This document shows, one piece after another, positions 1 through 31,256 of a stretch of 64,000 nt of DNA. Location: the NCBI RefSeq assembly GCF_001050155.1, contig NZ_LFVY01000016.1, forward strand, positions 62,001 through 126,000, read 5' to 3'. The translations under genes were made by a program, and so were the position numbers. The notes beneath the pieces are model-generated. The model saw only the letters and a program-made list of their open reading frames with translations. It was not told the origin of the DNA and ran no database searches. The stretch's first letter is position 1. Every line of letters begins with the position of its first letter. Source of the DNA: Nitratireductor soli (GTDB lineage Bacteria; Pseudomonadota; Alphaproteobacteria; Rhizobiales; Rhizobiaceae).

Positions 1-675
1 ACAGAGCACTTCGAAGGTTCCCGTGCGCGTCGGGGTGAACCAGAAATAGGTGACGGTGCCCGGCACCATATCCATCTTGGCGCGGAACTCGGGCACGTAG
101 AAATCGTGCAGAACGTCGATCGAGCGCAGCAGCATTTTTACCGGCTTGTCGATCGGCAGATGCAGGTCGGCCGCCTCGATCACCACGTCGTCCTGGCCGT
201 AGGGGTCGTCCGGATCTATGCCCAGCGGGTTTTCATAGGTGACGAGCCGGTTGTCCGATTTGCCGAGCCTGCCATCCTGGCCAGGCAACCGATAGCTCCA
301 TTGCCATTGCTGGCCGACCACCTCGACCTCGGTGGCGTCGTCGGGAACGGTGATGAATTGCGACCAGACATAAAGCCCCGGCGCCAGCATCGCCGCCACC
401 CCCACCGCCGTCACGGCAGTGAGCCACCATTCCAGTTTCTTGTTTTCGGGATTGTAATCGGCCTTGACGCCTTCCCTGTGCCGGAACCGGAACACGCAAT
501 AGGCCATGAACAGGACCACCGCGGAAAACACGGCGCCTGTGATCCAGAAGGTAATGATGAGGGTCTGGTCGATATAGCCCCAATTCGAAGCGATGGGCGA
601 CCACCACCATGGGCTCAAGATATGGAACAATATCGAGCCCACAACCACAAGGACGAGTACAAGCGCTACCGCCAT
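1..675 (-). CDS. coxB: Cytochrome c oxidase subunit II, 3' end cut by window
   Basis: Reverse-strand reading frame of 225 codons, open at the window edge. It carries the CuA subunit of a haem-copper terminal oxidase, which accepts electrons from cytochrome c at the outer face of the inner membrane. Visible: a hydrophobic start, a second membrane span (about residues 65-90), the aromatic stretch QQWQWSYRLPG, the conserved segment VLHDFYVPEFRAKMDMVPG, and the first CuA cysteine in FEVLC at the cut end. The ATG at 675 follows AGGAGG-type purines. The rest of the CuA site (CxxxC, His, Met) lies outside. No signal peptide cysteine is obvious at the N-terminus. Family assignment is secure; which oxidase branch is unknown. 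Confidence 0.9.
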   Translation of the reverse strand, partial: MAVALVLVLVVVGSILFHILSPWWWSPIASNWGYIDQTLIITFWITGAVFSAVVLFMAYCVFRFRHREGVKADYNPENKKLEWWLTAVTAVGVAAMLAPGLYVWSQFITVPDDATEVEVVGQQWQWSYRLPGQDGRLGKSDNRLVTYENPLGIDPDDPYGQDDVVIEAADLHLPIDKPVKMLLRSIDVLHDFYVPEFRAKMDMVPGTVTYFWFTPTRTGTFEVLC

Positions 676-9509: not shown

Positions 9510-9543
9510 GCGCCCGGTTTGAAGATAAGCTAGAACGTTCACC

Positions 9544-11300: not shown

Positions 11301-12156
11301 GCGAAGCGATGGCGGAGATGGGGGTGTCTGGACCGAGGAGCAGAACGACGCGATCGTTGCGGACTACTTCGCAATGCTCGCCGACGACATCGCCGGCCGC
11401 CCATACAGCAAGGCCGAGCACAACCGGCTCCTGCAAGCGGTAATTGGGCGGCCTCGGGGTTCCATAGAATATAAGCACCAGAACATCAGCGCGGTGCTAA
11501 AGGGCCTCGGCGAAGATTGGATCCCAGGCTACAAGCCGGCCTTCAATTTCCAAGCCTCGCTTATCGATGCCGTAGTACGCTGGCTCGAGCGTCATCCGGA
11601 TTGGCTTGTCCCGGCCGCGCGGATGGCAATGGGGCCGTCGCTATCGGCGCTTCGGGAAGAAGCGATGTTGTGGATCGGCCCGCCGCCGACGCACAGCAAT
11701 GCGCCGCCGCCCGATGAACTCGAGCAAATGACCGCCATCGCCCGGAAGTACGACGTGGCCGAACGTGATGCTCGCAATCGTGCGCTGGGTCGCGCTGGCG
11801 AGGAGCGTATCCTCGCCAATGAACGTGCCAGCCTTCTTGCCGCCGGTCGAACCGATCTTGCCGAACGCATCCGCTGGGTGTCGCATGTCGATGGCGACGG
11901 TGCCGGCTATGACATCCTTAGCTTCGATCCTGACGGTAGCGGTCGGCTGATCGAGGTGAAGACGACCAAAGGCTGGGAGCGCACACCGTTTCACATCACG
12001 CGTAATGAACTGGCCGTTGCTGAGGAGCGCCGCAATGACTGGCGACTAGTGAGGTTGTGGAATTTCGCGCGGGAGCCGCGAGCATTTGAGTTGCGGCCGC
12101 CGTTGGAGGCGCATGTGTCGCTGATGGCAACCAGTTATCAGGCCGATTTCTTATAA
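11278..12156 (+). CDS. DUF3883 domain protein, PD-(D/E)xK nuclease-like
   Basis: About 292 aa. The N-terminal half (EEQNDAIVADYFAML, GRPYSKAEHNR, GSIEYKHQNISAVL) is a helical region common in these proteins. The C-terminal DUF3883 domain has the restriction-endonuclease pattern GYDILSFD (D212) and RLIEVKTT (E226, K228). DUF3883 is often found in defence islands. The only start in frame is TTG at 11278 within the AbiEii gene; ATG at 11309 lies in another frame and would need a one-base change near 11323 to join, so the N-terminus may be frameshifted or the start is unusual. A decayed copy of its C-terminus lies at 14944-15019. Confidence 0.75.
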   Translation: MKRSWRDRRSDGGDGGVWTEEQNDAIVADYFAMLADDIAGRPYSKAEHNRLLQAVIGRPRGSIEYKHQNISAVLKGLGEDWIPGYKPAFNFQASLIDAVVRWLERHPDWLVPAARMAMGPSLSALREEAMLWIGPPPTHSNAPPPDELEQMTAIARKYDVAERDARNRALGRAGEERILANERASLLAAGRTDLAERIRWVSHVDGDGAGYDILSFDPDGSGRLIEVKTTKGWERTPFHITRNELAVAEERRNDWRLVRLWNFAREPRAFELRPPLEAHVSLMATSYQADFL

Positions 12157-12341
12157 GGGCCGACGGCGGAATGTCCGGGTCGGACGGAAATTGAAAGATA
12201 AGCTGCCGTTCGGTTCGTGACCCCAATTCCCGATTGAGAGCTCTCCGGTATTCGCTCGAAAGCGGACTGGCCTCCATTTGTGCGCAGCGTTCGGAAGCTG
12301 CTATCGTGCATGGGCTAGGGTAGAGGAAGGTAATAACGACC

Positions 12342-12521
12342 TTGCGAAGTTCCCCCTACGAAGAAATAGGTGAGAAGGCCCCTGCTCCGCAACTCCGACC
12401 ATCTGCGCTGCGGGCCGCAGCAAACGAACAGATCGCAATTTCCTCGCCAATGAACTATGAGAAACGACGCGCTTTGGCCGAGATCGAATGCCGGCGAATG
12501 TTTGCGGATCGCAGGGCCTGA
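12342..12521 (+). CDS. Small hypothetical protein before HEPN gene
   Basis: A 59-aa frame from TTG 12342 (preceded by AGAGGAAGG) to TGA 12521, 9 bases before the HEPN gene. The product is strongly helical and basic at its end (MNYEKRRALAEIECRRMF). No family recognised. Its position directly before a predicted RNase toxin makes an antitoxin or regulator conceivable, but coding status itself is uncertain. The 185 bases before it (12157-12341) hold nothing recognisable. Confidence 0.35.
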   Translation: MRSSPYEEIGEKAPAPQLRPSALRAAANEQIAISSPMNYEKRRALAEIECRRMFADRRA

Positions 12522-12530
12522 TAGAGGAGC

Positions 12531-13766
12531 ATGCTTCGGCTGCCGACGAAGATTATGTCGAATGAAATCTCGAAGAAACTGATCGAGCAAATCGACCTCG
12601 CACACCGAGCGGATATTTCGCGCGTCCGCGATGCTGCAATGGGTATCAGCGGGCTGACGGCCGATCGACTGGCGAGCGCTGCTCTCGGCGACATTGTCAC
12701 CAGAAACAGCGTCTTGCAGGATACGTTGAAGGGCATCTACGGCGTTGGATCAATCCACGACGTTATCTCCGGCAGGATGCGGGGCAGCGATGCTTTCGCG
12801 ACCATCAACGACAGCCGTTGGCGCGAGGCGGTGATTGGCACCTTTCCGTCCGGCACCGCTGCGGCTCTAGCCCAAAGTCTCCACGGCCAGTTTTCGTTGC
12901 CGGACACCACCAAGATTTCCGAGTTGCTCTCGGGCATCGGTCGCTATCCCTCGGCGATGCGGGACGCATTTGGCGGCATGCGCGAGCTGCGGGAACGCTT
13001 ACGCGTGATGCAGTCGCCTTGGCTCGATCTCGAACGGGAACCCTTATCAATACGGGCCTTCGCCAACATCCAGGCGATCGGCGGCCTTGCGACCTCAACA
13101 AATTCCTATAGCAAGTCGATCACGGCAGCGCTGCGCTCGCAGCTAGGCGACTGGCGCGATCCGATCACCTTCGACGTGCCCAAGCTAGCTGATGCATTCG
13201 CACGCATCGAACTTTATAATAGTCGGGGCTTCAATCCGGACCTCACGCATTTCAGCGAGGAAGCCTATCAGGAGACGGTCGAGGTTTCCGGCCTTGTCCT
13301 GGATGACGCGGACGTTGAGACAGTCGATGGTGATGATGATCTTGAACTCAACTCGAGGGCATATCAGACCTTACTTCGCTTTGAGCGTGAAATCCGCGCC
13401 TTTATCGTGACGGTCATGAGCACTACCTTCGGACCGGATTGGATGAAACACCAGTTGCCTCCGACCATCCACGATCAGTGGCAGGCAAAGAAGACCGCTG
13501 CGCTCAAAGCTGGTGCGGACGATCTGCCGTTGATCGAGTATGCTGATTTCACCGATTACCTGCCCATTATCGAGCGTAAGGACAATTGGGTCAGTGTCTT
13601 CAAGCCCGTCTTCGGACGGCCCGAAGACATTCGGGAATCGCTTCAGCGACTTTATCCGGTTCGACTGGCAACGATGCACGCTCGCATCATCACACTCGAT
13701 GATGACTTGCTGCTGCGCTCTGAAACCACGCGCATGTTCACCAAGCTGCGCCGTCACAAGAGCTAG
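12531..13766 (+). CDS. Swt1-type HEPN domain protein (putative RNase)
   Basis: A 411-aa protein. The N-terminal ~270 residues are helical and unassigned. The C-terminal part (about 285-400: LRFEREIRAFI, FGPDWMKHQLP, ADFTDYLPIIERKDNW) matches Swt1-like HEPN domains, and it ends with YPVRLATMHARI, giving the RxxxxH RNase motif at R378 and H383. HEPN proteins cut RNA in abortive-infection and toxin-antitoxin systems. AGAGGAG directly precedes ATG 12531; a second ATG at 12555 is also possible. It sits between two long direct repeats with AbiE and DUF3883, so a defence role is likely. Confidence 0.7.
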   Translation: MLRLPTKIMSNEISKKLIEQIDLAHRADISRVRDAAMGISGLTADRLASAALGDIVTRNSVLQDTLKGIYGVGSIHDVISGRMRGSDAFATINDSRWREAVIGTFPSGTAAALAQSLHGQFSLPDTTKISELLSGIGRYPSAMRDAFGGMRELRERLRVMQSPWLDLEREPLSIRAFANIQAIGGLATSTNSYSKSITAALRSQLGDWRDPITFDVPKLADAFARIELYNSRGFNPDLTHFSEEAYQETVEVSGLVLDDADVETVDGDDDLELNSRAYQTLLRFEREIRAFIVTVMSTTFGPDWMKHQLPPTIHDQWQAKKTAALKAGADDLPLIEYADFTDYLPIIERKDNWVSVFKPVFGRPEDIRESLQRLYPVRLATMHARIITLDDDLLLRSETTRMFTKLRRHKS

Positions 13767-13884
13767 TCGAGGCGCCGCGCTACGCGTAAAGAATTCGAGA
13801 ACGCGGTTCCGCGCGCGATCACCCGCGACATCGACGACGGCAGGGCGTGGAATGCGACCGATTGAGCAGGGAATTAGTTTATCG

Positions 13885-14103
13885 CTATCCCTTCAGCTTG
13901 GCGAGCAACTGATCGTGCAGCTCTGCAATCCTGCGATTGAGGCCTTCGATCGTTCCAAGCGCGCCGATTGCGATCTGGACCGCCTCGGCGGGTATTGCCC
14001 GCTGTCCCACGCCGATCTTCACAATGCGGCCAAGTGAACGGCGCAGCCCGTCTTTGCCGAACTTGCCGTAGATGATTTCGTCGAGCGCATTGGCGGCCTC
14101 CAT
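13885..14103 (-). CDS. Small hypothetical protein
   Basis: A 72-aa frame starting MEAANALDEIIYGKFGKDGL and ending in a short amphipathic coiled coil (EGLNRRIAELHDQLLAKL). No family recognised. It is the second of two small reverse-strand frames lying between the HEPN gene and the second long repeat. Plausible as a small DNA- or protein-binding accessory protein; moderate coding look, nothing more. Confidence 0.45.
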   Translation of the reverse strand: MEAANALDEIIYGKFGKDGLRRSLGRIVKIGVGQRAIPAEAVQIAIGALGTIEGLNRRIAELHDQLLAKLKG

Positions 14104-14138
14104 GCCGCAACTCTCTCTTAGTGTATCGCGATAGCCGC

Positions 14139-14469
14139 TCAGGTCTCGCTGCTCCGTTCCACGTCGTCCGCCGTGGCTTCGAGCATCGCGGCAATGCCCG
14201 CGACGTCATCCCTTGTACCGGTGCCATCGGCAATGCGCTCGAGATACTGGCGCGAGCCGGCCGGTGAAAAGACAAGCGTATCGAGATTACGGGCGGCACC
14301 TCGCGAACGCCGGTTACGAAACGTCCCTGCGACCGCTTTCCCCCCATCGGTCAATCAATGCTGCAACATCCCTCAGGCACGCGATCAGCTCGCGGAGCCC
14401 TTTGGCGAGATCGGTGACCGATCCTGGAATGGCAACGACGGTGCCTTCAGATGTGATCCTTTCGTTCAT
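14139..14469 (-). pseudogene. Small hypothetical gene, probably frameshifted
   Basis: From ATG 14469 a 51-aa frame reads MNERITSEGTVVAIPGSV and LRELIACLRDVAALID before stopping at 14314. A second frame from about 14354 to 14139 continues with a protein-like stretch (RNLDTLVFSPAGSRQYLERI, then DDVAGIAAMLEATADDVE). One indel near 14345 would fuse them into a protein of about 110 aa. No family recognised. It starts 13 bases from the left edge of repeat copy 2, so the repeat may carry its promoter. Confidence 0.35.
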
Positions 14470-14481
14470 GGTCCCCACTCT

Positions 14482-14931
14482 AATATTCTTTCTGCCCTAA
14501 GGATTTGATTTTCCTGCAAAAAATATCCTTTTTGGCTCCCTGCGCCGCGATGGAGGCCGTCAAAATGTTAGCATTTTGATTTTGCAGGGTTTTTAAGGAA
14601 TTTCTGGGCAGAAATTTTTTTGTGGACTATCGGGATCTATCGACCGTTTCACAGTGAGGCATTGACCTCAAATCTCGAATCCCTTGCCTCCGATAAAGTA
14701 CCGTCAAAACCGGCGAAATCAATACATCCGCCCCTCATCCCAGATCGCTGGGATCAGGGCGGCCTTGCCGAACAAGGGAGCCGAGATGGGCTAAGCCTCT
14801 CTGGCTGGCTGACACCAAAGTGCGGTTTTCAGCGCCAGAATCCAAGGATTTGTATCAAGACGAAGACTGAGGGTTTGCCATATGCCATATTTGCTAACCG
14901 ACGCGACGCTAAACGGGGCATTTTCAAACTA
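14482..14931. repeat. Long direct repeat, copy 2
   Basis: The 450-bp counterpart of 9062-9509 in the same orientation. The internal dyad is here perfect: TCAAAATG-TTAG-CATTTTGA (14560-14579). It is followed at once by a remnant of a DUF3883 gene, whereas copy 1 is followed by AbiEi. Differences are spread evenly, so the copies are old or were acquired separately, not a fresh duplication. The 212 bases after it (to 15143) carry only gene remnants. Confidence 0.8.
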
Positions 14932-14943
14932 TCAGCAGCCACG

Positions 14944-15019
14944 TTTTTTGAGTTGCGCCCGCCCGCTGGAAGAGCGTGTGTCATTCATGGCGACTGCCTA
15001 CCAGGCAAATTTGTTCTGA
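14944..15019 (+). pseudogene. Remnant of a second DUF3883 gene (C-terminus)
   Basis: With one base removed near 14963 the sequence reads FELRPP-LEERVSFMATAYQANLF-stop, matching the last residues of the intact DUF3883 protein (FELRPPLEAHVSLMATSYQADFL). A further frame, 15020-15187, begins HPNEFSRGRYYQFLDNG and looks like the end of another protein, not recognised. Together these show that another defence module once followed repeat copy 2. Confidence 0.6.
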
Positions 15020-15142
15020 CACCCAAACGAGTTTTCGCGGGGGCGTTACTACCAGTTCCTCGACAACGGCGGGTCAGAATATCAGGGCAAGTTCGACCTG
15101 AACGCAGCGCGCAAGAGCATGCCTATCGTTCTCCGCTACACG

Positions 15143-15667
15143 TCACACCACCCGCACGAACACCCACCCCCCATTAATCTTCCATGATCGTGCGAGGCCG
15201 CGCCCCACAAGCCGATTTGCGACGCGACTGACGTCCCAGACGAGCTCTTCGATCGCATCGGCTAGTTCCACGGCATTGCGTGGTTGAACCTCGTCCATTG
15301 CGCTGAGAACGGCCGCTTCGATCTCGGGATTATAAGGCGGCTCCCGATTTCCCCCCTCAAATCGGTCGCACCACAGAATGTGACCACGCCAGACGATGAA
15401 GTGGCTTTCGCACCCTCCTTCACGCCACACTGAGGGAAAGAGGGTAAGTCCTTCTCCCCGCATATCAAAGCGCCATGCCTTGTCGGCGCGACTGTCCAGG
15501 TTGATTACTAACGTCTCGCCGCACCCATCAGGGCACGCCATGACAATCGATCTGGGTCGTGAGCGAAACACCATGGAAGCGTCGCCAGGGGTGCTGAGGC
15601 TTGCTTCAGCCTGGTCCCTGTACTCAGCATCGCCGACCAACCGGACCATTCGTGCAGGCTCTGTCAT
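15143..15667 (-). CDS. DUF6527 family putative metal-binding protein
   Basis: A 174-aa protein with the DUF6527 look: CPDGCGETLVINLD (C45, C49), a further C86, and FIVWRGHILWC (H96, C100), a likely zinc-binding set. A C-terminal winged-helix-like tail (VELADAIEELVWDVSRVANRL) follows. In other genomes this family ends operons encoding multi-ubiquitin, E2 and JAB-E1 proteins; its biochemical role is not established. Its ATG overlaps the E1 stop by four bases (ATGA), so it belongs to the same operon. Confidence 0.75.
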   Translation of the reverse strand: MTEPARMVRLVGDAEYRDQAEASLSTPGDASMVFRSRPRSIVMACPDGCGETLVINLDSRADKAWRFDMRGEGLTLFPSVWREGGCESHFIVWRGHILWCDRFEGGNREPPYNPEIEAAVLSAMDEVQPRNAVELADAIEELVWDVSRVANRLVGRGLARSWKINGGWVFVRVV

Positions 15668-17010
15668 TTGTCGCTCCTATTGTAACGTGTTGGCCGGACC
15701 GGCAGATTCCAGGTTGGCCCTTTAGCGAAGGCGCCCATTGAAGAGCAGGCCACGCAATTCGGCTGCACGGCGACAGCCATCTCCTTCACTCGGCCACGAA
15801 TGCCGTCATAAACCTGATAGCGTGGTTTGATCGGAACCGGCGTGACAGCCCCGAGCAGCATGGTCATCGAGAGCGAACTCACGGTAGAGTTGATCGACAA
15901 AACCGCGGGCTGGGGTTCGCGCTCGCCCTGTACATAAGGGTCCGCCGCGCGCTGCTCAGGCGTCAGCATCTCCCGCCGGATCGCCTCGCCGTCGAGTGCG
16001 CCCGAGCAGTTCAGGCAAGGAAGTCCGGGCGCAAGCATCTGCACGCGTCCCGTGATATGGCTGACGGCTCCGTTCGCGACAGTGATGCTGACGCCCATAT
16101 CAATTACGGGCACCAAATACTGGTACGCAGCTTGGTTGACGACCGCCCGGCTCGCATGGGAATCCGTGCACAACAGCACGAAATCGAAGGTTGTGATGAG
16201 CTTAGCTACCTCCTCGTCGACGATGTCGGCTTGAAGGGGGACCACCTTGGCATCAGGGTTAATGGCGCGGATCATCCTGGCCGCGACCTCGACCTTCGGC
16301 CGGCCAACGTCTGAGGGGACAGAGCCGACGAGGCGATTAAGATTCGTCTCCTCAACTAGGTCGTGGTCGATCACCGTGATCTGCCTGGCGCCGAGATGGG
16401 CAAGTTGCTGGCACTCGAGCGATCCCGTCCCACCCGCACCGATCACGCCGAAGTGGAGGCGGCGCAGCAGCCGTTGCCCCGGCGCTCCGAATGCCCTGAC
16501 CTGCCGGTCGTCGCGTTCCTGATCGGACACGCCGTGCATGGGCGAATGGAGCATGAGCCTCTCTCCCACTTCCCATACGTCAATCTCATCGTCCTTTCCG
16601 AGAGGGCGCGCACGGCAGCCCTGCGGCCCAATCACCAGTGCGACATGTGGCACTGGTGCCGCTCGCCGAACAAAATACGAATCCAGTTCCGTCTCGCCCG
16701 CATCGTCGACCGGCGAAAAATGCGGATGGCCGGGGCTGGCCGGATGCGTGTGGATCGCGATGACGGCCATGCCGGTGACCCTGCTGCGGTTTGCAACCTC
16801 GATGAGGAAAGACGATTTGAGGATCGCAGATACGCAGGTACGGCTCTCATACGCATCGTCCGGCACGGGTCTGGCGTCGGCGACGATCCATGTGTCACTA
16901 TGCGCATCGTGATGGGCATAGGCGATGGCACAGCTCTCCAGGTCATTGGCGTCGAGCAGCATCGACGCCAGATCGGAGTAGAGAGGTGCAGGAAAGCGGA
17001 CGCGGCTCAT
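15664..17010 (-). CDS. JAB-E1 fusion: JAMM peptidase plus ThiF/E1-like adenylating enzyme
   Basis: A 448-aa fusion. N-terminal JAB/JAMM domain (about 1-160): zinc motif H87-T-H89-P with S99 and D102. JAMM enzymes trim or remove ubiquitin-like proteins. C-terminal ThiF/E1 fold (about 180-445): nucleotide loop GAGGTGS (191-197), NLNR with the arginine finger (R226), CTDSHASR (D283), and two zinc knuckles CLNC (332-335) and CVAC (419-422). No cysteine is present in the crossover loop (348-375), where a catalytic E1 cysteine is normally found. ATG 17010 overlaps the E2 stop (ATGA). A longer frame upstream exists but overlaps the E2 gene. Confidence 0.88.
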   Translation of the reverse strand: MSRVRFPAPLYSDLASMLLDANDLESCAIAYAHHDAHSDTWIVADARPVPDDAYESRTCVSAILKSSFLIEVANRSRVTGMAVIAIHTHPASPGHPHFSPVDDAGETELDSYFVRRAAPVPHVALVIGPQGCRARPLGKDDEIDVWEVGERLMLHSPMHGVSDQERDDRQVRAFGAPGQRLLRRLHFGVIGAGGTGSLECQQLAHLGARQITVIDHDLVEETNLNRLVGSVPSDVGRPKVEVAARMIRAINPDAKVVPLQADIVDEEVAKLITTFDFVLLCTDSHASRAVVNQAAYQYLVPVIDMGVSITVANGAVSHITGRVQMLAPGLPCLNCSGALDGEAIRREMLTPEQRAADPYVQGEREPQPAVLSINSTVSSLSMTMLLGAVTPVPIKPRYQVYDGIRGRVKEMAVAVQPNCVACSSMGAFAKGPTWNLPVRPTRYNRSDK

Positions 17011-17390
17011 TGGACCTGCCTCATTCGATCGATCACCACATTCATCCACGTCGACAGACTGTCGCGGTTGGGGTTCCATGGTCCCGTCAAATGCCACGAG
17101 AACCAGAGTGCCGGCTCGACGGTCTCCGGGACGGGAGTTGACGCGGAGTTCTGTGGTGGACCTCCATGCGCAAGAAGGAGATCGGGATCCGCCCAGAAGC
17201 AGTCGAGCTGCGCAAATGGATATCCTGGCGGGACGATGAAGCGGATGGTGGTCGACGACTTCGACCACCCCTCCGGCAGGCGGACGCCCGGCACGGTGAC
17301 GAGCGTGGTGCCGCTCGGCAACTGCCGGGTCTGAACGTCGCCGAAGCGCTCCCGCAGCTGCTCGAGCTGCATGTCGAACACGCCGGGCAT
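17007..17390 (-). CDS. Prokaryotic E2-like (UBC-fold) protein
   Basis: A 127-aa protein of the bacterial E2 family that accompanies multi-ubiquitin proteins. UBC-like landmarks are IRFIVPPGYPFAQLDCFW (50-66) and the C-terminal helix WNPNRDSLSTWMNVVIDRM. The single cysteine, C64, lies in the strand before, not after, the place of the classical E2 catalytic cysteine; this is either an alternative active site or not catalytic. Start overlaps the multi-ubiquitin stop by one base. Expected to take the activated ubiquitin-like protein from the E1. Confidence 0.8.
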   Translation of the reverse strand: MPGVFDMQLEQLRERFGDVQTRQLPSGTTLVTVPGVRLPEGWSKSSTTIRFIVPPGYPFAQLDCFWADPDLLLAHGGPPQNSASTPVPETVEPALWFSWHLTGPWNPNRDSLSTWMNVVIDRMRQVQ

Positions 17391-18133
17391 CAGCCGAAAT
17401 TCGCCTTGGGGACCGACGAGAAACGGCGGACACCATGCTTCGGAACGAGGCTCACAGCCTCATCATCGGCGATGATGCGGTCCGGGTCATCGCCCTCGCC
17501 CTCCAGCGACAGGTCATGCTGCGGATCCCAGTCAGATACCATCGCCTTGATCTGCGCGCCGGTCAGCTTCTTCTTATCGGTCTCGTAGGCCTTGCCGTTG
17601 ACGAAGAACGTGTAGGTGACCTTGTTGGGCGCCGTGATGAACTTCTCGACGCCGTTGGCGGCGAGATCCGCATCGGTGCCCGGTTCGATCAGCTTGTCCT
17701 TGCCGCCACGCACCTCCAGGAAGACCGCCTCGTCACTGCCGATGCCGGCGAGCGCACGCAGCACCGCTTCAGGGATGGAAGAACGGCCCCACACGATGCG
17801 CGCCTCGTTGAGCTTGACGCGGTAGAGCGGGTCGGTGCTGAAAGTGATGAAGCGGAAGGCGGCACGATCGCGCAGATCGACCTCCTCATCCGCCCGGACA
17901 TCTTCGAAGTCGCCTTCGGACGTGATCACGAACAGTGAGTGACCATCGATGTCGTTAATGCCGGCCTTCTTCAGGATCTGGCGGCCGAGCGGAACCGGAT
18001 CGTCGAGGATAAGCGGGTGGAAATCTACGCTGTCGACAGCGAGCGAGACCCGGTAGCGACCGGGGCGCAGGGGGCGATCTTCCTGCACGGCGAGTGCGAC
18101 ATCGTCGATGTCGGGGTTTTCGATAAGAGACAT
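17390..18133 (-). CDS. Multi-ubiquitin domain protein
   Basis: A 247-aa protein made of three ubiquitin-like beta-grasp units: about 25-95 (RYRVSLAVDSVDFHPLILDD), 100-172 (YRVKLNEARIVWG) and 176-240 (YTFFVNGKAYETDKKKLTG, the best conserved unit). The chain ends ...VPKANFG with a terminal glycine, so it could be activated without processing or after trimming by the JAB domain. It is the presumed modifier of the E2/E1-JAB pathway encoded next. ATG 18133 follows AGGA nine bases upstream; an 84-bp gap separates it from the helicase gene. Confidence 0.87.
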   Translation of the reverse strand: MSLIENPDIDDVALAVQEDRPLRPGRYRVSLAVDSVDFHPLILDDPVPLGRQILKKAGINDIDGHSLFVITSEGDFEDVRADEEVDLRDRAAFRFITFSTDPLYRVKLNEARIVWGRSSIPEAVLRALAGIGSDEAVFLEVRGGKDKLIEPGTDADLAANGVEKFITAPNKVTYTFFVNGKAYETDKKKLTGAQIKAMVSDWDPQHDLSLEGEGDDPDRIIADDEAVSLVPKHGVRRFSSVPKANFG

Positions 18134-18217
18134 ATTTTGTTTTCCTGTGGACCTCGGCCTGATTGCGTCGGTCTCACAGGGTTAATCTCGCCAGCATCGG
18201 CCGACCGGTAATTTTGG

Positions 18218-21200
18218 TCAGAGATTTTTTTGCAGCCTGCCGTCGGCCACTGGACCGCAGGTAAAGAAGGCGGGACAGAAGGGGCATGTGCGGTCGGATC
18301 GCTCAGGCGTGAAGTTTCCGCCCTCGATCGCCGCGAAGACTTCGGCAAGCTTTTCTGTTCTCTTGCCGAGCGCCTTATGGTCGAACTCGACCCTTGTAGT
18401 GTGATCGTCGTCGCCGAGGTGGACGATCTCGACCGTGCAGCCGGGAAGTGAGTTGGCGGCCGCCATCTGGAAGGCGGCGTCGGCGAGGCCCTGTCCGGTT
18501 TTGGAGGATCGGTGACCGGTCCGAACCATTCGCACGATATGCCGTCCATTAGGTGTCATCACGACATCGTCTGCATTTGCCGAGACGGTAGTCGTTCCGA
18601 GCCCTGTTTGGAGAGAAGGCGGTATCGAGCGGGTTGTACCCGCGCGCATCGCCACGAACCGCTGGACAAGCAGGGTCGCAACTTCACGGTGCAGCCGATA
18701 TTCCTCCCCAGCCAGTGGCCCTTCAGACCATCTCTGCTCCAGCAGTCTCTCCATGTCACCAAGCGACACGACGGAGGGATCAGTGGCGGCGATTTCCGTC
18801 ACGATGGCGCGGACCAGATCGTGCATTGTCGTCATGGTTGTTGGCGTGCGTCGACCGCCGACGCCAAGCACATGGGTGTACAAAAAGCGCCGTGGGCACC
18901 GATCATACAGATCCAGTTGCGCTGTCGTGACCTTGATTTCAGGCCCCAATACGATCGGGAGCGGTTCATCCTCGGGGTCCGGTTTCCGATCCGCGTGCGG
19001 CGTTGCCGCGCGGGTTGTCGTTACACCTAACCGTGCGATGAAATCCGAGGGATTACGCCGGTTGCCGTTCGCCATTCGGGTCGCTGAGTAAAGCAGGAGG
19101 CGGTCCCGGGCACGAGAGGCGGCGACATATAAAAGGCATTCCTGCTCGAGAGCGTGATCCGCAGCAGCCAGAGCGATCGTTCCGCCTTCTCCGCCAGCGA
19201 TCATGCCATCTGGCACCGGACAGGCCGGCTTACGTGCAGTGCTGGGCATGCTCCCCTTATTCAGACCCATGACGTGTACCACGGGGAACTCGAGACCCTT
19301 GCTACCATGGATGGTCATCAGCCGGACCGCGTTGATGCCCTGAGCGGCCAGCGGAATCTGTCGAAGATCCCGTTCATCGGCGAGCTGGACAAGTCGCCTG
19401 ATCCCGTCGAGCGTGCGGTGGATCGGCAAACCCGGCCCCGCACGTTGAGCGCGCAGGAAGCCCATCAGCTGCCAGATCGCCACGCCCATGGCGCGACTCG
19501 AGATATCGTCCGTCGAAGCGATCAGCGCCGCCGTTCGTGTCCGATCGAGCATGACATGCGCCAGCACGGACCAGGGAAGCGCATCGGTGCCAAAGCCGTC
19601 CAGCATGCCGGCCACCCGGCGCATGGCCTCAGTGTCAGCGGCGTCCAGGGTTGGCAACGAGGGCAATGAACCGGCCCAGGCGAGCGGTCCGGCTTCCACC
19701 TGCCGAAGGTGCTCGACCACCGCTGCTGCACCCGCCAGACTTAGCCCGGTCGACAATCCCTGGAGCGAGGCCTTACGCACCAATCCCATGGCCCGCCTGT
19801 CGACGAGCAACGACAGAACGGACAGCAGATCCTTGACCTCGGGTCGTTCGAAGAGATTGCCGAGGTAGAGGACCGGAATTCCGCGTCGCTCCAGTTCACG
19901 ACCCATGCGGTTGAGCCGGTCGTTGCCGGGGCAGAGCACAGCCTGGTCGCGGAAGGCGACGTCCTGAGAATGGCGCAGAATTTCGTCGGCGAGTGCGTCC
20001 GCCTCGTCGTCGTTGTCACCGAAGGTCACATGCTCTGGCGGGACACCGCTGGACGGTCGATCTGCTTTGAGGGAGGCATCGCCAGTGCCAGCCTGCATGC
20101 CCCCGCCGAAATTCGAAAATGCGCCAACGATCTCGGGCGTCGAGCGATAGTTGAGACGCAGCCGATCACCAGTACCACCAGGAAAGTCCTCGGTCCTGAA
20201 TCGCGACATGTTGAATGAGGATGCGCCGCGGAACCTGTAGATGGCCTGCCGCGCATCACCAACGGCCCAGAGGTTTTTGCCAGCATCCGTCAATCGCTGG
20301 AGCAGCCTCACGCTGCTGCGGTTCACGTCTTGATACTCGTCGACGAGGATATGGCTATATGTCGCGCGCAGAATCGAGACTGCCTCGGCATCGGATTCGA
20401 GCAGCTTTACGGGCAGAGACACGAGATCGCCGAAGTCCACCGCGCATGCCGCGAGCTTCAACTCCTCATATTTCTTATAGACAAGCGCGACTTCGGCGCA
20501 CCGCTCAGCGGCATTGCGGGCCTCGGGGTCAGTGGCCCTGTCCAGCATCTCCCGCGCCAGCGCGGCGTAGCGGTCAGCGTCCGCGACCTCGTCTTTCGCC
20601 CGGGATATCGCGGTGAGCATGTCCTTGAGGGGACGATCGGGATTCATGAACTCCCGATGATGGGTGAGGTCCAGTGCGAGATATTCGCGCTCCATGATCG
20701 CGATCGCCTCGCTGCGATCCATCATGCGGGGCTCTCTCGGGAAGCCCAGCTGCTTGTGGTATCTTCGCACCAGATCGAGACCGAAGGCGTGGAATGTGCC
20801 GATCCACATCGCCGACGCTGCCTCTGGCCGCAGTCCGGCGACGCGCTCGGATAGTTCTCCGGCAGCCTTGTTGGAGAAAGTCAGCACAAGAATCGATCGG
20901 GGGTCGATTCCTTCATCGACGAGGCCGGCGACCCGCCCGACGAGGGTCTGCGTCTTTCCCGTTCCCGGTCCGGCCTCGAGAAGATAGGGGGCCCCACGAT
21001 GCCGTGCAGCCTCGCGCTGCTCATCGTTGAGCGGCTTCGGAGGCCTTACCTCGGCCTCGTCGGGGTCCGGCTCGACCGCCGGAAGCAGCAGCGCATCGAG
21101 AAGCTGTAGCGCGACGACGTCGAAGGGGGCTCCCAGCCTCGTCGCAATCTCTGATGCCGTCATGCCGTCAAGGTGGAGTGCGCGAGCCCGTTTGCGCGGT

Positions 21201-21622
21201 AGCAGGAGCTCGCGACCGAACAGGTCCATCTGGACCTCGCGGCGCTGCCGCCGGCTGTAGTCGACGACCCGATCCTCGCCAACGGGGGCAGCTTCCGCTG
21301 GCCGCGTGGGATCGACGTCGTGGGCGACGTGCTCGATCCGGTCGTCGCCGAGCGTGGCGTGACCGAGTTCGTGGCCCACCAGGAAGGCCTTGAAGAAGGT
21401 TGTTCCCGAGTCCTCGTGCCTGATGGCACGATTTATTGGATCGAACTGTGCCCGGCCGCCCTCCAGGATCGCGCTGCCTGGCTCGACAAGCTCGATGTCC
21501 AATTCCAGACCGGATGCGGCGGCTTTAACGAGCGCCTCGGGATCCCAAGGGTCAGCGCCCTTGGAGACCACCTCATCATGAAGCGCCGCAGCACGCTGCC
21601 GCGCGAGTTCGACAGCATCCAT
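18218..21622 (-). CDS. ImmA/IrrE peptidase - UvrD helicase - AddB-like nuclease-domain fusion
   Basis: 1134 aa. The N-terminal ~150 residues are an ImmA/IrrE-type zinc peptidase (HELGH at 84-88; downstream MDLFGRELLLPR as in the family). An SF1 UvrD/Rep helicase core follows: AGPGTGKT (217-224), LTFSNKAA, DEYQDVN near 425, IHGSKGLEFP and YVAASRARDRL. The C-terminal ~270 residues resemble AddB/Cas4-type nucleases: QLDLYDRCPRRFLY plus CPFCPAFFTC give the four-cysteine Fe-S staple, but the PD-(D/E)xK signature is degraded (IVRMVRTG where IVDYKTG is usual). ImmA peptidases cleave repressors or anti-sigma-like partners. It starts 3 bp after the upstream gene. Confidence 0.88.
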   Translation of the reverse strand: MDAVELARQRAAALHDEVVSKGADPWDPEALVKAAASGLELDIELVEPGSAILEGGRAQFDPINRAIRHEDSGTTFFKAFLVGHELGHATLGDDRIEHVAHDVDPTRPAEAAPVGEDRVVDYSRRQRREVQMDLFGRELLLPRKRARALHLDGMTASEIATRLGAPFDVVALQLLDALLLPAVEPDPDEAEVRPPKPLNDEQREAARHRGAPYLLEAGPGTGKTQTLVGRVAGLVDEGIDPRSILVLTFSNKAAGELSERVAGLRPEAASAMWIGTFHAFGLDLVRRYHKQLGFPREPRMMDRSEAIAIMEREYLALDLTHHREFMNPDRPLKDMLTAISRAKDEVADADRYAALAREMLDRATDPEARNAAERCAEVALVYKKYEELKLAACAVDFGDLVSLPVKLLESDAEAVSILRATYSHILVDEYQDVNRSSVRLLQRLTDAGKNLWAVGDARQAIYRFRGASSFNMSRFRTEDFPGGTGDRLRLNYRSTPEIVGAFSNFGGGMQAGTGDASLKADRPSSGVPPEHVTFGDNDDEADALADEILRHSQDVAFRDQAVLCPGNDRLNRMGRELERRGIPVLYLGNLFERPEVKDLLSVLSLLVDRRAMGLVRKASLQGLSTGLSLAGAAAVVEHLRQVEAGPLAWAGSLPSLPTLDAADTEAMRRVAGMLDGFGTDALPWSVLAHVMLDRTRTAALIASTDDISSRAMGVAIWQLMGFLRAQRAGPGLPIHRTLDGIRRLVQLADERDLRQIPLAAQGINAVRLMTIHGSKGLEFPVVHVMGLNKGSMPSTARKPACPVPDGMIAGGEGGTIALAAADHALEQECLLYVAASRARDRLLLYSATRMANGNRRNPSDFIARLGVTTTRAATPHADRKPDPEDEPLPIVLGPEIKVTTAQLDLYDRCPRRFLYTHVLGVGGRRTPTTMTTMHDLVRAIVTEIAATDPSVVSLGDMERLLEQRWSEGPLAGEEYRLHREVATLLVQRFVAMRAGTTRSIPPSLQTGLGTTTVSANADDVVMTPNGRHIVRMVRTGHRSSKTGQGLADAAFQMAAANSLPGCTVEIVHLGDDDHTTRVEFDHKALGKRTEKLAEVFAAIEGGNFTPERSDRTCPFCPAFFTCGPVADGRLQKNL

Positions 21623-21625
21623 GGG

Positions 21626-22216
21626 TCAATCCTGTGAGGCCAGCAACTGCTGCCGTCGCTCATCCGGCACCTTGCACTGCTTGAGCAGGTCCTCGAACGT
21701 GATTTTCTCCTGCTCGGCGGATGGAGCATCGTCGGCTTTGTAGCTGATGCCCGGAGCAAGTCGAGGTGGTGCTGCCATGAAGCGGCGCAGGTCGTCCACG
21801 GTATAGCGGAGGCCGCGCGCAAGAGCGTCGACGAACCACGCGGGCACGCTGGCGATGTCCACAAGCCGGGAGCTAAACCCCTGGATCACCCCGCTGGGCA
21901 CATCAAGGGCGCGGCGAAGCCTTACCAGCTCCTGGGGCGAGACGTTGGCGAAGGGGTCGACCACCGCGGCGGATGCCTGAACCGGTGACGTCGCTCGGAA
22001 GGCTGCAAGGGACGCTTCTACCCATGCCTCATCGGCCGGCGCGGTGATCTCTCCAGTTGCGCGCTGCAGTCTGAGATCAAGGGATAGGTCGATCAACTCG
22101 CCCGAAAGATGTGGGTATAGCTGAAGGTAGCGGTCAAGAGTCGCATTGTCGTGCGCCTGCTCAACTGCGAATGCGAGGAGGATCTCCTCTGCGCTGTCGT
22201 TGCGGCTGTCAGTCAT
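21626..22216 (-). CDS. Hypothetical protein, possible regulator partner of sigma-like factor
   Basis: A 196-aa acidic, mostly helical protein. The N-terminal third (DSAEEILLAFAVEQAHDN, LYPHLSGELIDLSLDLRL) and the segment ANVSPQELVRLRRALDVPSG, which looks HTH-like, are the only features. No membrane span. ATG 22216 has GGAG six bases upstream, better than the 22228 start. It overlaps the sigma-like gene by 8 bases and is followed after 3 bases by the ImmA-helicase fusion, so it may be an anti-sigma or repressor that the ImmA domain cleaves; this is inference from position. Confidence 0.6.
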   Translation of the reverse strand: MTDSRNDSAEEILLAFAVEQAHDNATLDRYLQLYPHLSGELIDLSLDLRLQRATGEITAPADEAWVEASLAAFRATSPVQASAAVVDPFANVSPQELVRLRRALDVPSGVIQGFSSRLVDIASVPAWFVDALARGLRYTVDDLRRFMAAPPRLAPGISYKADDAPSAEQEKITFEDLLKQCKVPDERRQQLLASQD

Positions 22217-23021
22217 GGTTGTCTCCAATCGACAGAGCTTGGCGTATCAGTCGGTATGCTTCGTCACGTCTATTCCGAACCGTTTTCTCGGATTTGACGC
22301 CGATCGCCTTTCGAATGGTCATGACGCTATCGTCCGACGAATCGATTGGCATGTCCCTCATGATCAACTCAACGACTCTGCGTAACTTGTCTGGCAGGGA
22401 CCTAATCGCGTCGGCTACGCGCGACCGGTAAATCGGATCGTCAGACAGCAATTCCTCTTTGAGGTCTAAACTCCCGACCGCGCGCTCTACCGCCAGCGAG
22501 GGTTCGTTTGTCTCCTGGTCAGCCTCAATGGCTTCGGTGCGCGCCGCCTGTCTCCTCGCCCTGTGCATGGATGTCGTGCGGAGCGCTACAATGGCACCGG
22601 CAAACATGACCTCGAAATAGTCGAGGGCAGACCCTGGCTCGGCTCGATCCTCGATCAACTTGCGGACGAAGGTATCCCTTACCCTATCGCGAGCATCTGC
22701 GGCATGGACCCTCTCGGACACGTCGATGCGCTCGCCGCCGACGCGTGGCAGTGCCGATGAGAGTCGGCGCATGAGTTCGCGGTAGAGATCGTTGAAATAG
22801 CTTTCGTCGTTGTCATGCCGCGTGTCGCGTATCAGATAGACGATACACTCGGACTTCACGTAGAGCGGTGATGACGTCTCGCGGATCTTCAAGGCAGCGA
22901 TGATTTCCTCGCGCGACTGCTCAATGAGTCTCGCCAGCGCTTCCTCAACATCCGTGCGACGGCTGTAGAGCGCCCCGTCGGATCTGCGTTTCGTTAATGG
23001 CTTTACGTGTCGCGTGTCCAA
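22209..23021 (-). CDS. Sigma-factor-like protein (ECF/sigma region 4-like)
   Basis: A 270-aa protein. The C-terminal part (about 195-262: ADAIRSLPDKLRRVVELI, then KAIGVKSEKTVRNRRDEAY) has the layout of sigma region 4, with 'SLP.K.R.V..L' followed by an HTH. The N-terminal ~180 residues are helical and only loosely like region 2, so it may be an unusual sigma or a sigma-derived regulator. Start is TTG 23021 after a very strong GGGAGGGGG. It is the first gene of the seven-gene ubiquitin-like operon and may drive it or an outside target. Confidence 0.65.
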   Translation of the reverse strand: MDTRHVKPLTKRRSDGALYSRRTDVEEALARLIEQSREEIIAALKIRETSSPLYVKSECIVYLIRDTRHDNDESYFNDLYRELMRRLSSALPRVGGERIDVSERVHAADARDRVRDTFVRKLIEDRAEPGSALDYFEVMFAGAIVALRTTSMHRARRQAARTEAIEADQETNEPSLAVERAVGSLDLKEELLSDDPIYRSRVADAIRSLPDKLRRVVELIMRDMPIDSSDDSVMTIRKAIGVKSEKTVRNRRDEAYRLIRQALSIGDNHD

Positions 23022-23156
23022 AATCCCCCTCCCAAAAATTCATCCCCAATACTTTAGCTGTCAATGGAAAAGGCAGTTTTGATAAGACGCACCGGATCCA
23101 ACGATATATCCTTCCACTCATATACTTGTTGCTGTTTATAGCCTTAATTTCCAGCA

Positions 23157-24086
23157 TCACGCCCCATCATAGCTGCGATCCATCAGAGGTTTCGCTTTGT
23201 CCAACGTGGCGACGTCAGTGATGATGATTTCAAGGTCGCCAGTGCCGAAGTGACCGATATTGCGCACGTCGCGGGTAAAACCCGGCTCAAGTTGTATGGT
23301 GGCCGGATCGACCTTGACGAAAACTTTGAGGTGCCTGATCTGCGGCTTGACCTCGACGCACGCAAAGTTCTTCAGGCGGCGGAAGGCGACATAGTTGTCT
23401 AGGGTCTTCAGCTCGACATCATCGCCTAGCGCCAGCAGGTACGCCTTCGTTGCCTCGTAGAGATCGACAAGATCTTGGTCGGCATCCGCGAGGTACTGCG
23501 TAACAGTCTTCTGGCGCGACCGAGGTCGCATCGCCGCAGGCTCGCCTTGGGCGTCAACGCTGGCGGAGATTTCGCGCGCGGGCCGCTCCGATGCCGAGGT
23601 CAGCAGTTCGAACAGCAACAGTTCGTCACCAAAGCGGCGATAGCGAACCAGCGCGATATTTCGGTTCATCTGGTTGACCGCATGAGCATCGTATTTTGTG
23701 AAATCACCCGCGATGCAGATCAGCCGGGGCGTCGTCCAATCGACGGCCTTCGCCTCTTCGGCGCCGAAGCGCTCCAGAACAAGCCATTCGAAATCACGGC
23801 GGTGATCCATCAGCCAGTCGAGGTAGAATAAGCCTTGGTTGATGACGTTCTCATTGCTGGCCCGTTTGTACTCGACGATCACTGGCGAACCATTCTCGTC
23901 TATGCCCAGCGAATCCATGCGTCCGCCGTTTGTCGTCGGAAACTCCGATGCAAGAAACCGCACACCGAGGAACGCTTCCATGTTGCGTTCAATAAGGGTC
24001 TGCAACGACTTCTCCAGCGCAACCGCGCTGCCGCGAAGCTCTGTGACCGAAGCACTGTCCGTGCGAAATAGTTTTATATCGCTCAT
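23157..24086 (-). CDS. DUF5655/NucS-like nuclease domain protein
   Basis: About 309 aa. The N-terminal half resembles NucS/DUF91-type PD-(D/E)xK nucleases: GGRMDSLGID, then SPVIVEYKRASNE (acidic residue, then E-Y-K) and NQGLFYLDWLMDHR. The C-terminal ~110 residues (YLLALGDDVELKTLDNYVAF, LKVFVKVDP) are the DUF5655 domain. ATG 24086 has GGTGA seven bases upstream and lies 7 bases after the metallopeptidase stop, so a longer TTG start at 24125 is rejected. Last gene of the type I restriction operon; accessory nuclease role likely but untested. Confidence 0.75.
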   Translation of the reverse strand: MSDIKLFRTDSASVTELRGSAVALEKSLQTLIERNMEAFLGVRFLASEFPTTNGGRMDSLGIDENGSPVIVEYKRASNENVINQGLFYLDWLMDHRRDFEWLVLERFGAEEAKAVDWTTPRLICIAGDFTKYDAHAVNQMNRNIALVRYRRFGDELLLFELLTSASERPAREISASVDAQGEPAAMRPRSRQKTVTQYLADADQDLVDLYEATKAYLLALGDDVELKTLDNYVAFRRLKNFACVEVKPQIRHLKVFVKVDPATIQLEPGFTRDVRNIGHFGTGDLEIIITDVATLDKAKPLMDRSYDGA

Positions 24087-24093
24087 ACAAAAA

Positions 24094-24834
24094 TCACCAA
24101 ATGAACTGGTGCCCCATTCTATCAAGTCTTCTTAGGCGATCCTCGTAGTCCGGCATGATCGTTTCCAACGACCGCCAAAATCGCCGTGAATGATTGTGCT
24201 CAAGAACGTGACAAGCCTCGTGTGCAATAACGTAGTCGACCAGCGGCATCGGAGCCATCACCAAGCGCCAGTTGAGGCGGATGCGCCCCCGTGAATCGCA
24301 GCTTCCCCAGCGTTTGGACTGGTCAACGACATTGACGGTCGGTGTTGGAATGCCAAGCGTCTCTGCGATCATTCGCGCGCGGGCAGGAAAATGCTGGATC
24401 GCATGCGCTCGGTACCAGTGCCTGAGCCCGCTGCGGACAGCGGCGCGCTGAATGGATTCATGGCCATTCGGCAGCACCGGCGCGACAAGGGTGGAACCTC
24501 TCGCAGCAATCCGGGTCGTGACGGCGGTTTCGTCGGGAATGAGCTTCAGGCGATATTGGCGGCCGAGGTAGTGAAAGGTCTCGCCACTCACAAATTCCTT
24601 GGCGACCGGCTGCCCCCCAAGTTCGCGGTACGCCGCCTGTTTGCGAAGCAGCCAAGCGCCTTTCTTGCGAACGATGCCGAGGACGCGGTCATCGTCTAAG
24701 TCCGACGGCGCGAGGACGCGCACTCCGTCGAAGCCAACAGATATCGCCACGGTTTTCCGGCGCGCCGTCCGCTCGATCAGGAATGCAAACGTTTCGCCGC
24801 CAAAAACGATGGAATGCTGAGCCGCGTCCGTCAT
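24094..24834 (-). CDS. YgjP-like (DUF45/M48-type) metallopeptidase
   Basis: A 246-aa zinc metallopeptidase-like protein with HEACH (205-209), the WGSC phrase (176-179) just before, and C-terminal PDYEDRLRRLDRMG, all typical of YgjP/SprT-like DUF45 proteins. Such genes are commonly placed directly behind hsdR. Its ATG overlaps the hsdR stop (ATGA). Function in restriction loci is not established; it may process a subunit or act in repair. Confidence 0.8.
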   Translation of the reverse strand: MTDAAQHSIVFGGETFAFLIERTARRKTVAISVGFDGVRVLAPSDLDDDRVLGIVRKKGAWLLRKQAAYRELGGQPVAKEFVSGETFHYLGRQYRLKLIPDETAVTTRIAARGSTLVAPVLPNGHESIQRAAVRSGLRHWYRAHAIQHFPARARMIAETLGIPTPTVNVVDQSKRWGSCDSRGRIRLNWRLVMAPMPLVDYVIAHEACHVLEHNHSRRFWRSLETIMPDYEDRLRRLDRMGHQFIW

Positions 24835-30554: not shown

Positions 30555-30561
30555 GTTTTCC

Positions 30562-31194: not shown

Positions 31195-31208
31195 ACGCGA
31201 TTTATAGC

Positions 31209-31256
31209 CGTAGCGCACTACGCCGTCAAGAGAATATAAAACCGTAACTAGCTACG
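31209..31256. promoter_or_regulatory. Two matching palindromes upstream of the restriction operon
   Basis: CGTAGCGCACTACG (31209-31222) and CGTAACTAGCTACG (31243-31256) share the form CGTAR-N4-CTACG; centres are 34 bp apart. They lie between the half-HsdS gene and the divergent small HTH gene at 31355. The HTH protein is a likely ligand, giving restriction operon control. An AT-rich tract (GAATATAAAA) between them could be a -10 region. Confidence 0.55.

Follow-up and report, generated by a model that had tools for sequence, protein, structure and literature searches.

Known regulators of ubiquitin-like operons and the locus in Nitratireductor soli

How bacterial ubiquitin-like (Ubl) systems get switched on is an open question, and the closest described answers involve small regulators and peptidases encoded at the head of the operons. 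In the accessible part of a survey of 544 Bub operons, CapW or CapH+CapP are found with 219 and CapK+CapS with 59, and Bil is listed there as anti-phage (PMC13373217). The M78 peptidases CapP and PprI cleave transcriptional repressors on single-stranded DNA (ssDNA), according to the available part of PMC10904395. Here, we analyzed a seven-gene locus at positions 15143-23021, minus strand, of a 64,000-nucleotide stretch of the Nitratireductor soli genome (contig NZ_LFVY01000016.1; the whole stretch is referred to as the window), in which a Bub cassette is preceded by a triad of genes for an extracytoplasmic function (ECF)-like sigma factor, a small protein X and a fusion of an ImmA peptidase with a UvrD helicase. 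Our results suggest that the triad and two apparent private promoters constitute a self-contained switch that turns on a putative immune system upon DNA damage or invasion.

The triad resembles CapH+CapP of Bub operons and of operons of the cyclic oligonucleotide-based antiphage signaling system (CBASS), as far as these are described in the accessible text, in that an M78/ImmA peptidase and a small partner stand in the same slot at the head of a Ubl or immune operon (PMC13373217, PMC10904395). It differs from them in the fusion of the peptidase to an intact UvrD helicase and an apparently dead nuclease-like domain, in the addition of a sigma factor and in the presence of its own bipartite promoter-like element; an ImmA-type HExxH peptidase is present (83 of 83 aligned proteins), whereas a separate peptidase gene beside a recognizable XRE helix-turn-helix (HTH) repressor is absent. 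The proposed switch can also be likened to PprI/IrrE-DdrO, in which an ssDNA-activated M78 peptidase cuts a transcriptional repressor, although neither a sigma factor nor a helicase fusion is described for that switch in the part of the source available (PMC10904395). As for the payload, it corresponds to the polyUbl operons in row 6e of Iyer 2006, which comprise polyUbl, an E2-like protein, JAB-E1 and a metal-binding protein; the sigma/ImmA-UvrD head is not described in the accessible text of that work, from which the words sigma and helicase are absent (PMC1779556). BilABCD stands behind the same triad once, in a plasmid locus designated L009, whereas the payload in the window is of the Bub type and not Bil. 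ECF sigma factors controlled by a proteolyzed anti-sigma factor, such as sigmaV-RsiV, have a small partner encoded beside sigma and operate through a membrane cascade. The window locus is similar in having a small partner beside sigma and a protease proposed to remove it, but the role of the protease would here fall to a cytoplasmic ImmA that is coupled to a helicase and senses DNA.

Thus, the Bub payload belongs to the known polyUbl class, and a peptidase-controlled head is known in kind from CapH+CapP, whereas no description was found of a sigma factor with private promoters together with an ImmA fused to a helicase in this position; the literature searched, which did not cover two key Bub papers, contained no description of a sigma and ImmA-UvrD head on Bub or Bil operons. 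For Bub operons without Cap regulators, the triad offers a regulator of a distinct type, which comes with a sigma factor, a probable substrate and precisely located promoter-like sites. Through the shared switch, Bub systems are also connected to a Bil system, and one promoter-like element is conserved within a coding sequence across phyla.

The seven open reading frames (ORFs) listed in the first-pass annotation were all found again at the same coordinates and in the same order, and the only gap in the set is that of 84 bp at 18134-18217, between the helicase gene and the multi-ubiquitin gene. The features of the locus are as follows.

22209-23021, minus strand: ECF-like sigma factor of 270 aa with a TTG start; Sigma70_r4_2 in relatives; AlphaFold2 (AF2) model with pLDDT 85.8
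22404-22431, minus strand: P1, promoter-like element TTACCGG-N16-CGATT, within the sigma coding sequence and upstream of X and the helicase gene, lying over the codons of xYRSRxxxAI
21626-22216, minus strand: protein X, helical, with a weakly XRE-HTH-like middle; proposed anti-sigma factor or repressor and peptidase substrate
18218-21622, minus strand: ImmA (M78)-UvrD helicase-PD-(D/E)XK fusion of 1134 aa; Peptidase_M78 2.3e-9, UvrD-helicase 1.2e-64, PDDEXK_1 8.8e-8
21101-21427, minus strand: ImmA/IrrE peptidase domain with the HELGH motif; H84, E85, H88, E110, D121 and E129 in 83/83 aligned proteins
18257-18925, minus strand: PD-(D/E)XK-like domain at the C-terminus, carrying four conserved Cys; nuclease-dead as predicted from the alignment of 83 proteins
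18225-18231, minus strand: A7 tract resembling an UP element, within the final helicase codons and immediately upstream of P2
18184-18211, minus strand: P2, promoter-like element TTACCGG-N16-AGATT, within the gap of 84 bp ahead of the Bub genes
17390-18133, minus strand: BubA-like multi-ubiquitin protein with three Ubl domains and the C-terminus ...RRFSSVPKANFG; Multi_ubiq 6.7e-38, three stretches
17007-17390, minus strand: BubB-like E2; Prok-E2_E 8.8e-12; Citrobacter BubB 9eae
15664-17010, minus strand: BubCD-like JAB-E1 fusion; ThiF 1.2e-46; Citrobacter BubCD 9ea4
15143-15667, minus strand: DUF6527 protein; DUF6527 8.8e-18

Linkage of the triad to ubiquitin-like cassettes

The first-pass annotation had also joined the head block and the multi-ubiquitin block into one unit, a view against which a lack of co-occurrence elsewhere would speak. 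We searched other genomes and plasmids for the same gene order and found it repeatedly, which strongly supports the unity of the two blocks. Among plasmids, sigma relatives were present in 73 records (40 listed) and multi-ubiquitin relatives in 116 (60 listed). In all 14 records that were opened, the genes for sigma, X and the helicase follow one another in that order (L016 is cut by the record start, and some ORFs are split), and 13 of them have a cassette behind the triad, which consists of multi-ubiquitin, E1 and DUF6527 in 12 records and of BilABCD in one. A genome scan using the sigma alignment yielded 112 relatives. Of the best 80, which were retained, 74 loci have at least 5.5 kb after sigma, and Ubl-system genes were found in 71 of these. 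The three loci without them were L041 and L092, in which the helicase genes are broken, and L062, in which the triad is intact. When 398 genomes of the phylum were sampled, Multi_ubiq was detected in 15 (in 13 above the cut-off of the family; the match in G256 is below it) and sigma in six, all six being among the 15 and having sigma about 4 kb upstream of Multi_ubiq on the same strand; the other 9 of the 15 are without the triad. Among 385 genomes of the class, sigma was found in four, one of which has a 57-residue fragment, and in the other three, including the window's genome, it precedes a Bub cassette. With few exceptions, the triads observed are accompanied by a Ubl cassette.

The arrangement itself is also well kept. 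Wherever sigma, X, a helicase gene of full length and the leading payload gene were all found, the four are on the same strand (79/79 loci), and X was found in 79 of the 80 genome loci, with the single miss at a contig end. In 63 of the 93 loci measured, sigma and X share 4 bp. The gap between the helicase gene and the payload is 80-89 bp in 50 of 79 loci, 11 of the values being negative as an effect of taking the longest ORF start. The titles of the triad records name Alpha-, Beta- and Gammaproteobacteria, Verrucomicrobiota, Planctomycetota, Myxococcota, a metagenome-assembled genome of Acidobacteria and, on a plasmid, a cyanobacterium. Judged by this arrangement, the head triad is a conserved module, and the gene order of the locus is not due to chance. 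The two blocks could be supposed to be chance neighbors without any functional link, considering that the window is a defense island and that such islands shuffle systems; however, this supposition is contradicted by the co-occurrence and by the fact that gene order, strand, spacing and the element recur in several phyla, and we find it hardly credible.

The payload had been taken in the first-pass annotation for a bacterial ubiquitin-like system of multi-ubiquitin, E2, JAB-E1 and DUF6527, and this is borne out by the family matches and by those to Citrobacter Bub structures. The multi-ubiquitin protein matches solved multi-ubiquitin and BilA chains (9cd2, 9d59, 8u38), and its C-terminus, RRFSSVPKANFG, is kept in 14/14 rows of the window payload type, including that of the window. 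The E2 matches Citrobacter BubB (9eae_C) with an E of 4e-6 over residues 27-115, and the JAB-E1 protein matches Citrobacter BubCD (9ea4_A) with an E of 1.1e-30 over residues 43-389, spanning both parts. The JAB-E1 gene starts at the ATG at 17010, which overlaps the E2 stop, the longest ORF start at 17436 not being that of the gene; its JAB part has no Pfam match in the window protein, and the JAMM residues H87, H89, S99 and D102 are our own reading. With a multi-Ubl protein, a BubB-related E2 and a BubCD-related JAB/E1, the cassette is, by these similarities, a Bub operon, and no Bil family was among the PADLOC matches listed for the payload (the best 25 of 27 for E1). In the DUF6527 protein, for which no useful PDB sequence relatives were obtained, C45, G48, C49, G50, P78, S79, C86 and H89 are invariant in 20/20 sequences. 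Bub proteins are known for oxyester chemistry, protein conjugation and Ser-His protease properties, and the invariant S79 and H89 would fit the last of these.

The payload architectures found behind the triad are the window type (multi-ubiquitin, E2, JAB-E1 and DUF6527), multi-ubiquitin with DUF6791-ThiF, a multi-ubiquitin-E2 fusion with JAB-E1, and BilABCD. The last was found at L009 (Bradyrhizobium japonicum p1S06B, 8929-18780), where the triad is followed by full BilABCD, with PADLOC matches from 1.6e-47 for BilA to 4e-146 for BilD. Among 385 genomes of the class, none of those with a BilD match <1e-10 has sigma, and, for the 35 plasmid records with a BilD relative, the triad was seen in L009 only, among the 40 listed of 73 sigma-bearing records. 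At L009, genes annotated as a DNA repair exonuclease and an AAA family ATPase come after BilABCD.

We also examined what stands at the corresponding position when the triad is absent, by scanning ten chosen neighbor ORFs across nine multi-ubiquitin loci. As a result, an HTH gene and an M78 peptidase gene were found at L099, L103 and L104, an HTH-M78 fusion at L101, a weak M78 match below the cut-off at L102, an HTH-HATPase gene like CapK at L105 and only a weak HTH at L106, and no regulator was recognized among the neighbor ORFs scanned at L098 and L100. M78-peptidase or CapK-like regulators are thus present at 6/9 of these loci. Because the loci without the triad carry HTH, M78 or CapK-like genes at that place and Cap regulators precede Bub operons in the accessible part of the survey (PMC13373217), the triad is, in terms of position, the occupant of the regulator slot of Bub operons.

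The ImmA-UvrD protein retains the Walker A and DExQD motifs of the helicase and the HExxH motif of ImmA in 83/83 aligned proteins. In its C-terminal domain, R1031 (83/83) and I/V1033 (82/83) stand at the place of the expected D/E-x-K, this placement relative to the canonical motif being a reading of the alignment, and C909 is kept in 82/83 and C1113/C1116/C1122 in 81/83. The PD-(D/E)XK domain looks catalytically dead, and on our reading the peptidase and the helicase of this protein are active, whereas its tail binds DNA without cutting it. No useful PDB sequence relatives were obtained for the ImmA domain or for the nuclease-like domain.

It may be considered here that the triad is itself an effector, with ImmA-UvrD attacking or processing phage DNA and proteins and the Ubl system modifying ImmA-UvrD, as two halves of one defense machine. 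UvrD helicases are effectors in Gabija-like systems, and PADLOC GajB matches were obtained. Such a machine is also consistent with a helicase tree of 88 rows, in which the payload labels need nine changes compared with 27.7 in shuffles and a minimum of four, indicating that the helicase and conjugation genes mostly descend together; the tree was built by a quick method, and one of the changes (L020) is an artifact of a contig end cutting its E1. However, the nuclease motif is lost in 82-83 of 83 proteins, the sigma gene and the private promoter-like element speak for regulation, and the payload has been exchanged among Bub types and Bil, or is absent (L062), while the triad persists. We therefore consider an effector role of the triad unlikely. 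From the tree, the triad and the payload appear to have largely descended jointly, with occasional exchange.

The sigma factor, protein X and the promoter-like elements

Neither the window sigma nor the window X matched a Pfam family by itself, and no useful PDB sequence relatives were obtained for sigma. Among the 36 sigma relatives aligned, 32 matched Sigma70_r4_2 at E<=1, the best of them at 2.7e-8. When the model of the window sigma was aligned by VIA-align, the rows were nearly all sigma factors, with a best Z of 9.4 (1or7_A), a value that must be discounted to the extent that helical models often reach middling Z in such structural alignments; region 4 alone gave a Z of 9.3 with 2.8 Å over 68 residues against 2h27_D. 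The structural rows cover residues 49-265, but with a root-mean-square deviation of 15-18 Å and with the domains placed differently, and no region 2 was among the 25 Pfam families listed. Given the family matches in the relatives and the structural match of the window model, the protein has a region 4 HTH of the sigma-70 kind, and on this homology we count it as a sigma factor.

The longest ORF of X is 21626-22228, and the ATG at 22216 is its likelier start, with the Met invariant in 36/36 aligned relatives; from there, X overlaps the sigma gene by 8 bp. X had no match in Pfam, NCBIfam or PADLOC at E<=0.01, and its model is all-helical (AF2 pLDDT 85.3), with weak XRE rows at Z 3.3-4.2. The role of repressor that the first-pass annotation gave to this middle gene would agree with the weak XRE-HTH similarity, X having no HTH family match, and an anti-sigma role is considered equally.

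The gaps between the helicase gene and the payload share a bipartite consensus, in which an A-tract is followed by TTACCGG, 16 bp and CGATT. TWWCCGN-15..17-VGATT was found in 79 of 89 distinct gap sequences, compared with 0.05 in shuffles, and the form with CCGG and [CA]GATT in 70 of the 89 (0.005 in shuffles). A loose form with up to two plus one mismatches was present in 90/94 loci (5.3 in shuffles), and the spacer was 16 bp in 86 of these 90. The payload ATG is located about 51 nt downstream of P2, and upstream of it A6 or longer is found in 51 of 78 distinct helicase 3' ends, where AAA accounts for 94 of 125 Lys codons (30.8 expected). P2 is present before Bub types and Bil alike, and no such element was found before the payload in 9/9 multi-ubiquitin loci without the triad, four relaxed matches being elsewhere in their 142 kb. 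Since the gap carries this conserved promoter-like element, a promoter that is separate, though linked, probably serves the payload. As to the single operon proposed in the first-pass annotation, the linkage of the blocks holds, whereas the seven genes may not simply form one transcript. An ordinary sigma-70 promoter was rejected in a scan of 14200-24200, which gave fewer sites than shuffles and none on the operon strand. RNA structure in the gap was also rejected, as RNAalifold gave zero pairs, and the window contains no RNA families at the gathering threshold and no tRNAs.

Because P1 lies within the sigma coding sequence, its conservation was evaluated by codon choice, with codon frequencies in those very sigma and helicase genes as background and with 4 of 98 rows lacking the protein motif dropped. 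All five required codon states were present in 39 of 73 distinct 30-mers, against 0.14 expected. With one row per cluster and four positions, the counts were 42/68 (0.31 expected) at 90% identity, 20/37 (0.19) at 70% and 11/20 (0.09) at 50%. On this statistic, P1 is kept by codon choice. In several lineages, and also in L007 and L108, both P1 and P2 have TTTCCGG for TTACCGG; the sharing of TTT gave Fisher values of 1.2e-6 over 57 clusters, 0.003 over 29 and 0.008 over 16, not corrected for kinship. In the host genome (5.1 Mb), TTACCGGTC-N15-GATT, a pattern written to fit both elements, matched P1 and P2 only and its reversed control gave zero, and a relaxed pattern gave five matches, one of which is P1, the other four being taken as chance. 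A further copy of the element, TTTCCGG-15-CGATT, is present in front of the sigma gene at L070 and L073, which suggests direct autoregulation there.

P1 and P2 could instead be operators for X, through its HTH, or sites of another factor, with sigma acting elsewhere or marginally, as X is weakly XRE-like, the inside of a gene is an odd position for a promoter and the region upstream of the sigma gene rarely has the element. However, the element is non-palindromic and points downstream at both sites, and the near-fixed spacer, the A-tract before P2 and the distance to the ATG complete what we regard as promoter anatomy; furthermore, the window form is confined to the locus in the host genome, and the element is missing before the payload of loci without the triad. 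An operator role accordingly seems to us quite unlikely. The encoded sigma is favored as the reader of P1 and P2 because the element is tied to sigma-bearing loci, and a bipartite promoter-like element near its own operon, as is characteristic of the sigma family, is found twice here. The proposed pairing of sigma with P1 and P2 as promoters is well supported at the level of sequence.

Proposed switch and genomic setting

We consider it fairly probable that the triad is a dedicated switch and the Bub cassette the payload of a regulated immune-type operon, with sigma freed from X driving P2. In resting cells, X would keep the ECF-like sigma, or its promoters, silent. ImmA-UvrD would load on abnormal DNA, such as ssDNA, ends or phage intermediates, by means of its helicase and dead-nuclease domains, and this loading would activate the ImmA peptidase to cleave X. 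The freed sigma would then bring RNA polymerase to P2 to turn on the Ubl-conjugation genes and, acting at P1 in its own gene, would supply more X and protease as feedback. The cleavage step is proposed because CapP-CapH and PprI-DdrO are ssDNA-activated ImmA-type switches in the accessible part of PMC10904395. Of this scheme, the sequences show the linkage of triad and payload, the identity of sigma, the intactness of the peptidase and helicase motifs, the lost nuclease motif and the two conserved elements associated with such loci. We infer, strongly, that sigma recognizes P1 and P2 and, beyond this, the role of X as an anti-sigma factor or repressor, its cleavage, the DNA signal and the anti-phage function. 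As for the wider proposition, that a private two-promoter sigma regulon controls Ubl immunity, with helicase-coupled ImmA turning abnormal DNA into sigma release, P1 codons serving both protein and regulation and the module being exchangeable between Bub and Bil, we hold the chances to be evenly balanced.

Several observations weigh against the proposed switch. The window sigma is among the four of 36 without a Sigma70_r4_2 match, Foldseek of the sigma model alone gave no sigma match below an E of 0.07, and the X model has no confident fold match. P2 in the window reads AGATT rather than CGATT, and 10 of the 89 distinct gap sequences are without the relaxed element, those of L015, L033, L083, L094 and L107 having apparently true helicase ends and variant elements and those of L016, L025, L041, L044 and L093 having helicase ends that are cut, split or broken. 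P1 is without an A-tract (A5 in 8/67), and 4 of 57 clusters combine TTT at P1 with TTA at P2. Only 2 of 72 distinct stretches ahead of the sigma gene carry an element, and the idea of a universal one there was rejected. A single strict element is common by chance, at least one occurring in 74/398 genomes, and a blind search for same-strand element pairs within 5 kb recovered the triads of two of the six genomes that have one, along with an unrelated pair, and failed to recover those of the other four. This unrelated pair, located in G138 in a region with housekeeping-looking ORFs, was rejected and warns against over-reading the motif. In addition, the intact triad of L062, without a Ubl cassette, is closely related to that of the Bil locus L009. 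At L062 (Bradyrhizobium rifense, 10007-20792), the triad and P2 are followed by no recognized Ubl payload and then by an exonuclease/ATPase-like ORF pair that resembles, by eye, that of L009; this locus is perhaps a payload deletion or a minimal form.

It is also conceivable, albeit somewhat unlikely in our estimation, that the switch is right but that its output is a response to DNA damage or conjugative-element stress instead of phage defense. Of the 14 opened plasmid copies, 10 are on records typed conjugative (nine) or mobilizable (one), and Bub operons are, in the accessible part of the survey, not yet shown to stop phage or protect against it (PMC13373217), which counts equally against an immune role of the switch. 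On the other hand, the same triad precedes BilABCD once, and the neighbors in the window are a type I restriction-modification (RM) system, PDC-S18 and AbiE, which favor the immune-type operon proposed above.

Directly upstream of the triad on the same strand, at 23157-31218, are a PDC-S18 (DUF5655) gene, a YgjP-type metallopeptidase gene and the type I RM system (HsdR, HsdS, HsdM and a second small S-domain ORF). On the other side of the operon, at 9544-13766, are an AbiEi/AbiEii type IV toxin-antitoxin pair, a NOV_C-domain gene and a weak HEPN_Swt1-like gene below the cut-off. Because a HipA-like kinase, a weak ParB_N match and a DUF3363/MobA relaxase are found at 32164-57113, the operon is probably carried as cargo by a mobile element, perhaps a conjugative one. 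Carriage by phages was tried and rejected, as a scan of viral_contigs with the alignment of sigma gave pattern matches in 40 stretches, none of which encoded a relative. The best multi-ubiquitin match to the window is on the plasmid of Rhizobium sp. C104 (L007, 4134-13390), where sigma is split in two frames and the E1 ORF is split, and a gene annotated as a phosphotransferase is located between E1 and DUF6527. On a Klebsiella pneumoniae plasmid (L006, 4160-18380), the triad and Bub cassette adjoin Tn7-like transposition genes annotated as TnsA and TnsD, a possible vehicle.

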